This document shows, one piece after another, positions 8,926-50,325 of a stretch of DNA of 64,000 bases. The notes below the pieces were generated by a model that ran no database searches, was not told where the DNA came from, and saw only the letters and a list, made by a program, of their open reading frames with translations. The position numbers and the translations under genes were made by a program. Every line of letters starts with the position of its first letter. Position 1 is the stretch's first letter. Source of the DNA: Exiguobacterium sp. 9-2 (lineage in GTDB: Bacteria > Bacillota > Bacilli > Exiguobacteriales > Exiguobacteriaceae); assembly GCF_036287235.1 (NCBI RefSeq), contig NZ_CP142850.1:2323336-2387335 (forward strand), written 5' to 3'.

Positions 8926-9186
8926 AAAAAAACCGGTCTTCCGCCCCTAAGAAAAGGGACGAAAGACCGGTTTGGCTTCCGCGGTACCACCCACGTTGTC
9001 TGTCTATGACAGACCGCTTGATTCACGGATAACGGTGTGAAAGACCGGATTCGCTACTACGACTTCACGAATCGTGCTCCCTGACGAGTTCACGGTTGTT
9101 ACCGACTGGTTCGCACCTTCCACCAGCTCTCTTGACGGCACCTTTCCCCTACTACTTCAGTTCCATGCATTTGACTATCTTTTTCT
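8926..9186 (-). promoter_or_regulatory. T-box leader (tRNA-Leu sensing) of leuS
   Basis: On the minus strand the leader shows the T-box order: Stem I with the AGAGAGCTGGTGG element and the GGTGCGAACC loop near 9110-9140, then the T-box core GGGTGGTACCGCG (8980-8992 region), then a long terminator hairpin (8926-8973, AAACCGGTCTT stem with seven T). The specifier is probably CTC (Leu) in the string GTGAACTCG. Binding of uncharged tRNA-Leu favours the antiterminator and leuS expression. The class and target are firm from motif and position; the exact specifier register is inferred. Confidence 0.92.
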
Positions 9187-15833: not shown

Positions 15834-16020
15834 AAAAAAACCTTTCCAAGTCCAAAAAATGGTCAGGGAAAGGTTGTGCGTTCTTCCTTTACCCTCTTAT
15901 CGTTCGAAGTGTTTACTTCGCTTCAGGAGAGCACCTTTTCCCTCATTAATATATGAATTAATGTAGGACGGTTGCCGGGTTTCTTCGGGCCTTGTTCCCT
16001 CCACCTGCTCAGAATAAGAG
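15834..16020 (-). promoter_or_regulatory. SAM-I riboswitch (S-box) of metK
   Basis: The aptamer spans 15894-16020 on the minus strand. P1 is CTCTTAT paired with ATAAGAG; then come GAGCAGGTGGAGGGA, a GGCCC/GAAACCCGGCAACC core and the P3/P4 helices, all diagnostic of the S-box. The expression platform is a terminator hairpin (AACCTTTCC with GGAAAGGTT, 15834-15875) followed by seven T. High SAM should stabilise the aptamer and stop transcription before metK. Confidence 0.97.
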
Positions 16021-23811: not shown

Positions 23812-24060
23812 AATGTATACACTCCCTAACTAAATTCATCAACTTATAATAACACACTTTTCTTGTATCGTAAAAAATATTTTTGGAATTTGTTTATTTT
23901 TTATTTCACAAGGGAACATTTTAGTAGCAAGACTTCAAGTATTCCCCCTGATTCTGCCGAACTTTCCGAGTTCGGCCCTTTTTTTGTTCTTTTACTCAAT
24001 TGACCTAAAAAACAGATACCGAAAAGTGATGTGAGCGACTTTCAAAACGCTCTAATAAAA
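23812..24060. other. Non-coding AT-rich stretch with an orphan plus-strand terminator
   Basis: No open reading frame with a ribosome site is visible here. 23840-23930 is strongly AT-rich. A strong plus-strand terminator at 23956-23985 has no plus-strand gene upstream, which raises the possibility of a small RNA between about 23880 and 23985. Confidence 0.5.
23956..23985 (+). terminator. Orphan intrinsic terminator
   Basis: GCCGAACT and AGTTCGGC form a perfect 8-base-pair stem around a TTCCG loop, followed by CC and seven T. The minus strand has no T-run. No annotated plus-strand gene precedes it. Confidence 0.85.
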
Positions 24061-24185
24061 ACAGACAGTCTCGGTCTGCTCGCTTTCCGCGGACAAGCCC
24101 TCATGCCGCTTCAGATGCGTCGCATCTTCCAGGGTCATGACGACTTGTTTTTCCGCAGGAGTCGAGCAGAACCTCACCTGTCCTA
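24061..24185. repeat. Interspersed palindromic element, copy 1
   Basis: An imperfect palindrome. Outer arms CTGCTCG (24076-24082) and CGAGCAG (24163-24169) pair, ACAAG pairs with CTTGT further in, and AGATGCG/CGCATCT forms a perfect apical stem (24113-24127). The parts CGCTTTCCGCGG on one side and TTCCGCAGGAGTC on the other recur, in opposite orientation, in the element at 47512-47640. As far as I recall, similar elements occur between genes in many Bacillaceae. It lies about 50 bases beyond the nrdB stop. Confidence 0.7.
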
Positions 24186-24236: not shown

Positions 24237-25280
24237 TTACAGGTCATCGAATCCATTCGCATCCGTTACTTTCGCATATGAACGTGATTTTTGTTCGAAG
24301 AAGTCTGATTTCGTCGCGTTCATCGAATCATCTGAATACGCCCGAATCCATGGCATGACGTCTTCGTCGTGTCCTTCGTAAAGATCCGACAAACCGATAA
24401 CGCGAAGACGTTTATTCGCGAGATATTTGACGTAGTCACGCATTTCACTAACATCAAGACCATCTAGATCACGCAAGACATATTCGCTCCACTCGATTTC
24501 AAGATCCACGGCACGCTTGAACGTGTCGTAGACGAATTGTGTGAATGAGCCATCTGCATCGATTTCTGGATGCTCCGACAAGACAGCACGTAATAACTGG
24601 CTGATGAAGTACGAGTGTTGCAATTCATCACGTTGAATATAGCTGATCATCGTCGATGTTCCGACCATCTTCTGATGGCGCGCTAGGTTATAGAAGAAAG
24701 CAAAGCCAGAATAGAAGTTGATCCCTTCAAGAACGATTGAAGCAACGAGTGATTTCGCGAAGTTCTCTGGCGTCCGGTCATTTTGGAAATCTTCGTATAA
24801 ATCAAGAATGAATGCATTACGCTTCATGACCATGTCATCGTCTTTCGCGATATCGAAAATCCGGTTTTGTTCAGCCAATGGAACTAAGCTGGATAAGACG
24901 TAGCTATACGATTGATTATGAACTACTTCCTGTTGTGCGATGATGGCGAGAATCGCATGAACGGATGAATCCGATGTAAACATCGCTGATTCCAAGATGT
25001 AGCGTGTCTGAACCGAGTCAAGGATCGAGAGTAGCCCAATGATTCGTTTGAATGCATCTTGTTCCCGTTCGCTCAGTTGATTCCATTGTTGCATGTCTTT
25101 TGACATTGAAATCTCATCTGGAATCCAAAAGTTCGATAACAGTTGTTTGTAAATCGAATAAAACTGTGGATACGCAATGTCGTTCCAGTTGACGATGGCA
25201 CTTGTTTCGCCACCGATGATCGCTGTCGCGCGATTTGGATGACGTGCATCAAGCAGTTTGATTTTTTGTAGCTGTTCCAT
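24237..25280 (-). CDS. nrdB: Ribonucleotide reductase, small (beta) subunit, class I
   Basis: A 347-residue radical-generating subunit. The six metal ligands can be placed: D88, E118, H121, E185, E219 and H222, with the radical tyrosine Y125 in HNQSYSYV. Together with the large subunit it makes deoxyribonucleotides. The C-terminal tail (ending VTDANGFDDL) would contact the alpha subunit. The ATG overlaps the end of the flavodoxin gene by 32 bases and has an AAGGAG site, so it is the third gene of one operon. Iron or manganese use cannot be told from sequence. Confidence 0.92.
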   Translation of the reverse strand: MEQLQKIKLLDARHPNRATAIIGGETSAIVNWNDIAYPQFYSIYKQLLSNFWIPDEISMSKDMQQWNQLSEREQDAFKRIIGLLSILDSVQTRYILESAMFTSDSSVHAILAIIAQQEVVHNQSYSYVLSSLVPLAEQNRIFDIAKDDDMVMKRNAFILDLYEDFQNDRTPENFAKSLVASIVLEGINFYSGFAFFYNLARHQKMVGTSTMISYIQRDELQHSYFISQLLRAVLSEHPEIDADGSFTQFVYDTFKRAVDLEIEWSEYVLRDLDGLDVSEMRDYVKYLANKRLRVIGLSDLYEGHDEDVMPWIRAYSDDSMNATKSDFFEQKSRSYAKVTDANGFDDL

Positions 25281-46384: not shown

Positions 46385-46413
46385 AGACCTATCCAATGCT
46401 AGGAGGGAATCAG

Positions 46414-47412
46414 ATGTACCAACCATATGATGTCACGATCATCGGCGGCGGTCCGGTCGGACTGTTCACCGCGTTTTATTCAGGAATGCGCCAGATGAAG
46501 ACGAAGGTCATCGAGAGTCTACCTCAATTAGGTGGTCAACTCGCTACGCTTTATCCTGAAAAATATATATACGATATCGCCGGTTTTCCAAAAGTAAAAG
46601 CGCAGGAACTAGTCGATCGGCTACTTGAACAGGCGAATGAATTTGATCCGACGTATGTGCTCGGTGAGACAGTCATCGCTTATGAACGGATGGATGATGG
46701 GATCATCCGCCTCGTCACGAACAAAGGCGAGCATTATACGAAGACCGTCATCTTGACAGCAGGGAACGGTTCGTTCGCTGCGCGCCCACTCGGTGTCGCG
46801 GACGCGGAACGCTTCGAGGAAACAAACTTGCACTATTTCGTCAACGACATGGAACGTTTCAAGGATCGTCAAGTCGTCCTGCTTGGTGGTGGCGATTCAG
46901 CAGTCGACTGGTCATTGATGCTTGAACCGATTGCGAAATCCGTCACGCTCGTCCACCGTCGCGATAAGTTCCGTGCCCATGAACATTCGGTCGAACTATT
47001 ACACGACTCATCCGTTAACGTCATGACGCCGTATACGCTCGAATCGGTCACAGGTGAGACGCACATCGAGACGATGACGTTCAAACATGCTGAAAGTGGC
47101 GAAGTCGTCGTCGTTGCTGCTGACGATGTCGTCTGCAACTTTGGTTTCGTCTCGTCACTTGGGCCGCTCAAAGAATGGGAAGTCGAGTTCGAACGCAATT
47201 CGATTCGCGTCAACTCGAAGATGGAGACTGCGATTCCAGGCGTCTTCGCTTGTGGAGATATTGCGACTTACGAAGGACGCGTCAAATTGATCGCAACAGG
47301 CTTCGGTGAAGCACCGATTGCCGTCAACCAGGCGAAACTTCTTGTCGATCCATCGGCTCGTCACCCGCAACACTCGACAAGTCTGTTCGAAAAAGTAACG
47401 AATCATTCTTGA
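46414..47412 (+). CDS. yumC: Ferredoxin/flavodoxin-NADP+ reductase (YumC type)
   Basis: A 332-residue thioredoxin-reductase-like flavoprotein. FAD binds at [19 protein letters not shown] and in [18 protein letters not shown] binds at [13 protein letters not shown]. The CxxC redox pair of thioredoxin reductase is absent, which marks the YumC ferredoxin-NADP+ reductases of Firmicutes. It could supply reduced flavodoxin or ferredoxin, for example to the flavodoxin of the nrd operon. The ATG at 46414 follows AGGAGGGA. Divergent from the NDH-2 gene. Confidence 0.92.
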
Positions 47413-47433: not shown

Positions 47434-47484
47434 AAATAAGAGGTCGAATTCTGGATAACATACCGGAGTCCGACCTCTTATTTT
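47434..47484. terminator. Intrinsic terminator
   Basis: AATAAGAGGTCG pairs with CGACCTCTTATT across a 24-base apical part and is followed by TTTTG on the plus strand. Confidence 0.8.
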
Positions 47485-47511
47485 GATGGAATCACACCTA
47501 GGACGTGACCA

Positions 47512-47640
47512 AACATCTTTGACTCCTACAGGAAAAGGAAGCACGATGTGTGCTTCCGTCAGGGATAAGGAAGACCCGATAGATCACATGGAATGGGAAC
47601 TGGCGCGGCTTACATCCCGCCTGAGGAAAGCGAAGATGTT
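47512..47640. repeat. Interspersed palindromic element, copy 2
   Basis: Perfect 8-base terminal arms AACATCTT (47512-47519) and AAGATGTT (47633-47640) enclose GACTCCTACAGGAAAA at one side and TGAGGAAAGCG at the other, with GCGGC inside. These blocks correspond to the reverse complement of copy 1 (24061-24185). A perfect GGAAGCAC/GTGCTTCC hairpin lies at 47537-47557. The element sits between the yumC terminator and the 3' end of the acetyltransferase gene. Confidence 0.7.
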
Positions 47641-47653
47641 GAAACGTCCGATT

Positions 47654-48145
47654 TCATACGAATGATCTTTTAACAGGCATCCGGTAAACCCGCTGCACGA
47701 GTTCCACCCCACCACGCTCAATCATCGATTCTTCGAAGAGCTGACCGCCGAATCGCTCGTAAAACTGGCACGCCGGATTATCCCGCAAGACAGAAACCTG
47801 CATTGACTCGTATTCCGCCAAGTCCTCGATGATACGTTGAAACAATGCCTTCCCGAGCCCCTGCCCTTGAGAAGCTCGCAAAACATAAATCGCGTAGAGT
47901 TCTCCTTCACGCGCATCCCTTCGATTTGGTCCACCTTGCGCAAAGCCAACGACTTCGTCTTCTAACTCCACAACATACACGCGCTGATCGACTAACGTCT
48001 GCTCCCATTGTTTCGTCCGTTTCTCGTAAGACAACTGTGCTAAATAAGGATCAGGGATGATCCCTTGATATGTCTCCCGCCAGGCATCGATATGAACGCG
48101 CGCAATGGTCGACGCATCTTCAAGACGTGCTTCACGGATGATCAT
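47654..48145 (-). CDS. GNAT N-acetyltransferase
   Basis: A 163-residue acetyltransferase. The acetyl-CoA motif is YVLRASQGQGLGKALFQRII (Q-x-x-G-L-G), preceded by EDEVVGFAQGGPNR and followed by QVSVLRDNPACQFYERFGGQ. The N-terminal IREARLEDASTIARVHIDAW with TYQGIIPDPYL is typical of YkkB/YjcF-like small-molecule acetyltransferases. It overlaps the upstream acetyltransferase gene by 4 bases (ATGA) and so is part of a three-gene operon. Substrate unknown. Confidence 0.87.
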   Translation of the reverse strand: MIIREARLEDASTIARVHIDAWRETYQGIIPDPYLAQLSYEKRTKQWEQTLVDQRVYVVELEDEVVGFAQGGPNRRDAREGELYAIYVLRASQGQGLGKALFQRIIEDLAEYESMQVSVLRDNPACQFYERFGGQLFEESMIERGGVELVQRVYRMPVKRSFV

Positions 48146-49977: not shown

Positions 49978-50090
49978 GTCATCACCTTCCTTTTCTTTAG
50001 TATACGCAACTTCTGAGCGAATCGAAACCTAGTTGCTTGAAACTATCTTGAATTCGTTGTATAAATGGTATGTACAATAAAATAATCGTT

Positions 50091-50325
50091 CCATCTTCAG
50101 GGCAGGGTGAAATTCCCGACCGGCGGTAAACAACTCTTTTTAAGTTGAAGCCCGCGAGCGAATAGGGCGCTATTTGCTGATTCTGTGTAATTCAGGAGCC
50201 GACAGTACAGTCTGGATGGGAGAAGATGGCGGCATGAGTTTGAATTTGATCGATTTTGCAATAATCGATTAGGTTTATTTAATGCGGACTTCTCCCCTGT
50301 TGATCTGATCAATAGGGGTTTCTTT
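50091..50325 (+). promoter_or_regulatory. FMN riboswitch (RFN element) of ribU
   Basis: The aptamer spans 50091-50229: P1 is CCATCTTC paired with GAAGATGG, enclosing GGGCAGGGTGAAATTCCCGA, CCGGCGGT, AGCCCGCGAGCG and GAGCCGACAGT with TCTGGATGGGAGAAG, all RFN hallmarks. The platform is a terminator (CCCCTGTTGAT paired with ATCAATAGGGG, 50294-50318, with TTTCTTT). TTCTCCC before it can pair with GGGAGAA of the aptamer, giving the antiterminator. High FMN should stop ribU expression. Confidence 0.97.

Follow-up and report, generated by a model that had tools for sequence, protein, structure and literature searches.

Between two converging genes, a 64,000-nucleotide stretch of Exiguobacterium sp. 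9-2 DNA (the window) contains a palindromic element, which raises the question of what such an element is and what it does at the ends of genes. A sequence-only reading had described perfect 8-base arms around two internal blocks and left three options: a structured RNA, a 3'-end stabilizer or a passively mobilized repeat. The arms (AACATCTT and AAGATGTT) and, between them, the blocks GACTCCTACAGG and GAGGAAAGCG are all found in the DNA (Table 1). The closing stem is longer than those ends imply, with GGACGT (47501-47506) able to pair with ACGTCC (47644-47649). The palindrome belongs to a family of dispersed, structured repeats. The family, its structure, and its location and orientation at gene ends are established here. 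Two of the proposed options gained support, the 3'-end element from location and a terminator motif and the mobilized repeat from larger units that carry the element.

Table 1. Coordinates of the element, its parts, its neighbors and its sibling in the window.
Feature	Position	Strand	Remarks
Whole element	47501-47649	+	Reads GACTCCT...GGAAAGCG; includes outer pairs GGACGT/ACGTCC; from fold and model match
P1, 5' arm	47512-47519	+	AACATCTT; partner 47633-47640
P1, 3' arm	47633-47640	+	AAGATGTT
Conserved block, 5' strand of P2	47521-47532	+	GACTCCTACAGG; partner 47620-47632
AAAA	47533-47536	+	Three positions invariant in alignment; UUUU after P3 on minus strand
Hairpin P3	47537-47557	-	With UUUU, intrinsic-terminator motif on the strand of the GNAT-like gene
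Long hairpin P4	47562-47618	+	GGGAT...ATCCC
Conserved block, 3' strand of P2 and internal loop	47620-47632	+	CCTGAGGAAAGCG
Separate terminator hairpin	47434-47483		Between plus-strand gene and element; A-rich before, T-rich after
Upstream gene	46396-47412	+	Presumably ferredoxin-NADP reductase-like
Converging gene	47654-48145	-	Presumably GNAT acetyltransferase-like; stop codon 4 nt from element
Sibling element	24075-24170	-	Other subfamily, without P3; downstream of nrdF-like gene 24237-25280, same orientation
Terminator motif at 3' edge of sibling	24059-24081	-	In direction of nrdF-like gene

BLAST and pattern searches detected about two dozen relatives of the element in its own 3.06-Mb single-contig genome. 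A covariance model was built from 36 copies of several species, orthologs included, and identified 14 to 131 copies per genome in 19 of 19 Exiguobacterium genomes searched. A genome-wide collection of copies had been called for in the sequence-only reading, and many further copies exist. The model matches the window copy, a member of the training set, at 47495-47656 with E = 4.2e-43. The sibling, which is absent from that set, is found with E = 1.3e-11, and the internal blocks and arms (CTGCTCG/CGAGCAG) attributed to it are present on the minus strand. In a sample of the class, matches occur in 53 of 300 genomes and 17 of 118 genera, the home genus counted in. Those outside Exiguobacterium are weaker relatives that lack hairpin P3, many with GACTCCTGCGGGAAAAGCG...CCCGCGGAAAGCG. 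Rfam 15 gave no match at the gathering score for the window element, its copies or the Bacillales relatives, which rules out a known RNA family, and a literature search by sequence string returned no relevant paper on the sequence of the repeat. The family appears to be uncatalogued. Elsewhere in the window, an FMN riboswitch (50089-50231, plus strand), a SAM riboswitch (15894-16020, minus strand) and a T-box leader (8952-9174, minus strand) score above the gathering threshold. Short derivatives in the same genome (L018, L022, L029 and L044) keep the outer stem with the core partly or wholly missing, and are probably internal deletions between GGAAA repeats.

The consensus fold of the 36 copies has a multi-helix core of about 130 to 150 nt. 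It consists of the outer arms P1, the helix P2 (UCC/GGA and CAGG/CCUG), the hairpin P3 and the long hairpin P4. Double changes occur in 28 of the 36 pairs. Paired cells amount to 94.2%, compared to 78% in shuffled and less than 50% in slid alignments, the slid control favoring the fold because the structure was derived from that same alignment, orthologs included. The UCC/GGA pairs of P2 are invariant across the 36 sequences, and unpaired GAC, AAAA and GUCA are conserved beside the covarying helices. The window copy folds on the plus strand better than shuffled sequences (z = -5.0; 0 of 200 shuffles as good), and the sibling does so on its own strand (z = -6.2). An inner GGAAGCAC/GTGCTTCC hairpin had been considered unique to the window copy. 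It is P3, which is conserved and covarying in most copies of the family and absent from the subfamily of the sibling.

Comparison of 38 disjoint ortholog pairs distinguishes the core from the arms. Per-base change is 2.1% in P2, 2.9% in P3 and 3.1% in P4, whereas unpaired positions, with the flanks of the model counted among them, reach 9.7%. P1 has a rate of 8.3%; 2 of its changes are compensatory, 21 lead to G-U and 20 are single and disruptive, and at 3 sites both bases changed and pairing was lost. The core is thus kept in place and the near-neutral arms much less so. The core is under stronger selection in place than the outer arms, on which the earlier reading had laid its emphasis. That reading took arms that differ in sequence yet stay complementary as the mark of a selected stem. 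The arms do covary between copies, with double changes in 9 of 9 P1 pairs, but they drift almost neutrally among orthologs, which weakens their covariation as proof of selection in place. That the arms of different paralogs are complementary may go back to the origin of each individual copy.

The balance of G-U against A-C combinations hints at which strand folds as RNA, and it leans toward the GACUCCU strand without settling the choice. The orthologs give 22:13 in P2-P4 (p = 0.18) and 21:11 in P1 (p = 0.11), or 43:24 in sum, and the weighted count over 121 copies is 92.8 to 45.6, mostly from P4. A strong bias in a first ortholog count (16 versus about 3) shrank to 22:13 with independent pairs. 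This lean would suit a structured RNA made from the strand reading GACUCCU...GGAAAGCG, acting for example as a barrier to transcripts arriving from the opposite side or as a stabilizing 3' structure. The sibling reads that way from its upstream gene, and in some copies an A-tract, the outer stem and a T-tract make a terminator in that direction. The G-U excess is small, however, is non-significant per helix group in orthologs and is due in part to one or two pairs of P4. Compared with the swapped-partner control, outer T-tails are moderately more frequent (57% versus 39%, one class), and with this modest excess and its presence in some copies only, a terminator built from the outer stem and T-tract was rejected. 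The window copy has no outer T-tract and adjoins the separate hairpin at 47434-47483. We consider a function of the GACUCCU strand unlikely.

Near-neutral change of the outer stem in orthologs and the lack of a strong G-U bias would also be compatible with a fold that serves the DNA. Single-stranded or cruciform hairpins would then be used for transposition, and the arms would be kept by template-switch correction of quasi-palindromes. Template switching alone would not be expected to conserve the unpaired bases beside covarying helices or to impose constraint on old immobile copies, and a fold at the DNA level is quite improbable.

The location of the family was surveyed in six 400-kb regions with 85 occupied gaps, counted per genome so that orthologous sites enter more than once. 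The gene map came from a simple home-made caller trained on the surveyed regions, which reproduced the genes of the window. Occupied gaps are convergent in 54 cases, tandem in 31 and divergent in none, whereas the shares among background gaps of 100 nt or more are 13, 57 and 29%, in that order. This bias has p ~1e-22 to 1e-26 with orthologous sites common to several genomes treated as separate. No copy lies inside a called gene in the six regions. An association with gene ends, which had been put forward as a check on the palindrome, is borne out, with copies located at gene 3' ends. Of 70 copies in convergent settings, 60 have their 3' end, not their 5' end, closer to a stop codon; among 35 tandem copies, 27 run opposite to their gene. 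Overall, the stop codon of the gene beside the 3' end of the element faces the element in 97 of 105 copies, so the transcript of that gene would read the element in antisense. The antisense-reading neighbor in the window is the GNAT-like gene ending at 47654. The sibling has the orientation of its upstream gene and is an exception to the antisense rule. Head-to-head pairs of members are frequent in single convergent gaps (L004, L002, L155, L144 and others), the 3' end of each member pointing toward a gene end.

The antisense strand has a distinctive arrangement in which P3 is followed directly by UUUU, the complement of the conserved AAAA. On the minus strand of the window copy, 47557-47537 reads GGAAGCACACATCGTGCTTCC and then TTTT, a GC-rich hairpin with a U-tract as in intrinsic terminators. 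Judging by the adjacent gene, this strand would be transcribed. Among 105 copies, 89 have a terminator motif on the strand of the neighboring gene and 12 on the opposite one; shuffled elements have it in 9 of 525 cases. P4 takes the place of P3 as the terminator stem in 15 of 19 members lacking P3, its stem leading into T-rich sequence of the same strand.

Location at gene ends might also be the residue of a passive mobile repeat with no host role, through losses elsewhere or because the unit targets terminators. Copy number varies from 14 to 131 between species, some copies occur in tandem arrays or in units with inverted ends and duplicated targets (see below), and the enrichment of pneumococcal repeats and insertion sequences in convergent gaps has been taken as tolerance (PMC3049150). 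Passivity does not account for P2-P4 being kept in orthologs at about one-fourth to one-third of the unpaired rate, or for the copies (46 of 97) that have no further terminator motif in the interval from the stop codon to the element. A purely passive repeat is fairly unlikely.

The favored reading, which we hold to be somewhat probable, is that the element, as a copy of the dispersed structured repeat, serves as a 3'-end module of transcripts. From the sequence features, the repeat probably helps to stop transcription at head-on gene ends. In the window, polymerase leaving the GNAT-like gene on the minus strand would stop at or near P3-UUUU, and the hairpin at 47434-47483 would be a second stop, common to the opposing gene. 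Several observations count against this reading. The G-U/A-C balance does not favor the strand of the adjacent gene, the sibling has the other orientation, the U-tract is short (UUUU and then CC), and the window copy has no unit ends or direct repeats. Parts of P2 and P1 fall past the proposed stop, so that termination alone does not account for the conservation of these helices.

Evidence for mobility comes from relatives in other genomes. In two sister genomes (G015 and G008), the element lies inside MITE-like units of 270 to 400 bp with the ends CAGCGTGTAGACAAAC...GTTTGTCTACAG. Both inverted ends were found in 16 of 41 M-class units of the relatives and in a few others; none were recognized for the window copy. 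Direct repeats of at least 9 bp flank 20 of 23 units in these two genomes, compared to 7 of 435 with shuffled partners. The repeats vary in length, and most are host terminator hairpins in full. For six sites, the sister genome lacks the unit at the orthologous position and has one hairpin, and the flanks overlap by 22 to 41 bp. A unit of a type found in the window's own genome shows the same hairpin duplication (L205 in G001). These data support a mode of insertion in the two sister genomes in which the units land at host terminators and the entire hairpin is duplicated. Duplication of an entire hairpin also suggests recognition of hairpin or cruciform DNA, a point in favor of a fold that serves the DNA. 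Comparison of the unit ends, covering roughly 100 of the 121 ends in G015, revealed no evident autonomous partner carrying these inverted ends. Tandem arrays of 3 to 4 units, spaced by about 240 to 370 bp and with a structured element in each, occur in G008 (L291:10436-11399 and L290:4560-5466). B-type copies in the window's own genome (L030, L031 and L035) lie in units that are bounded by GGCTGACTCA/TGAGTCAGCC and contain an additional hairpin, GATAAGGGTGGCAGA...TCTGCCACCCTTATC.

Direct repeats were found in 0 of 16 A-type copies, the type of the window copy, and in none of 39 B-type copies, so the insertion history of the window copy is one that we infer. Several species have copies at sites orthologous to the window element. 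The locus in G002 keeps the 3' arm and is therefore a deletion, not an empty site, and two further apparent empty sites are internal deletions as well. In G016 (L066, L055), the orthologous site is occupied by another member of the family, oppositely oriented, with an IS-like insertion beside it. Older copies like that of the window would descend from insertions resembling those in the sister genomes, the duplicate having been lost and the copy kept as a terminator. We give about an even chance to the wider proposal in which a mobile family targets terminator hairpins and duplicates the whole hairpin (22-41 bp, a length set by the hairpin). Both sides would keep a terminator and the family would carry a conserved structured terminator core. 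It would thus spread harmlessly between convergent genes and leave behind domesticated terminators such as the window copy. Group IIC introns are mobile and also recognize intrinsic-terminator hairpins; they are placed next to the hairpin through reverse transcription and do not duplicate it. Inverted ends and a duplicated hairpin set the present units apart.

The family was compared with known repeats and terminators. The SPRITE, BOX and RUP elements of Streptococcus pneumoniae are dispersed structured repeats with MITE features, and SPRITE is intrinsic-terminator-like and enriched between convergent genes near the 3' ends of coding sequences (PMC3049150). The Exiguobacterium family resembles SPRITE in this location and in its terminator likeness. 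SPRITE, however, consists of a simple 18-bp duplex, a U-rich tract and AAAA/TTTT ends, and no target duplication was established for it (PMC3049150), whereas the present family has a four-helix covarying fold, conserved blocks, other ends, a home in another clade and, in sister species, units that duplicate a host terminator hairpin. REP/BIME sequences are extragenic palindromes often found between convergent genes (PMC1525189), and REPs measure 20-40 bp (PMC3733652). REPs have a GTAG or CGTC foot and are linked to Y1 transposases. No match to Y1_Tnp (PF01797) was found in the window's own genome, although control genomes gave matches, and with a core of about 130 to 150 bp a REP/RAYT system is ruled out. 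Intrinsic terminators of Bacillus cereus consist of a hairpin and a U-tract, are in some cases common to convergent genes and keep their stems paired through compensatory change (PMC5381666). They are treated as single-locus hairpins, unlike the present repeat family with its conserved multi-helix core. Bhal-1 of Bacillus halodurans (Bacillaceae) is an intergenic stem-loop family of 74 bp with 36 copies (PMC2267715) and, from its description, might be a Bacillaceae relative lacking P3.

The analysis describes a structured repeat that occurs in all searched genomes of the genus, is recognizable in other genera of the class and provides gene ends with terminator motifs. Duplicated targets in the sister species suggest a safe-landing strategy of mobile DNA: the target is a terminator hairpin, which is copied whole. 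How bacterial genomes gain new terminators thereby becomes directly testable.
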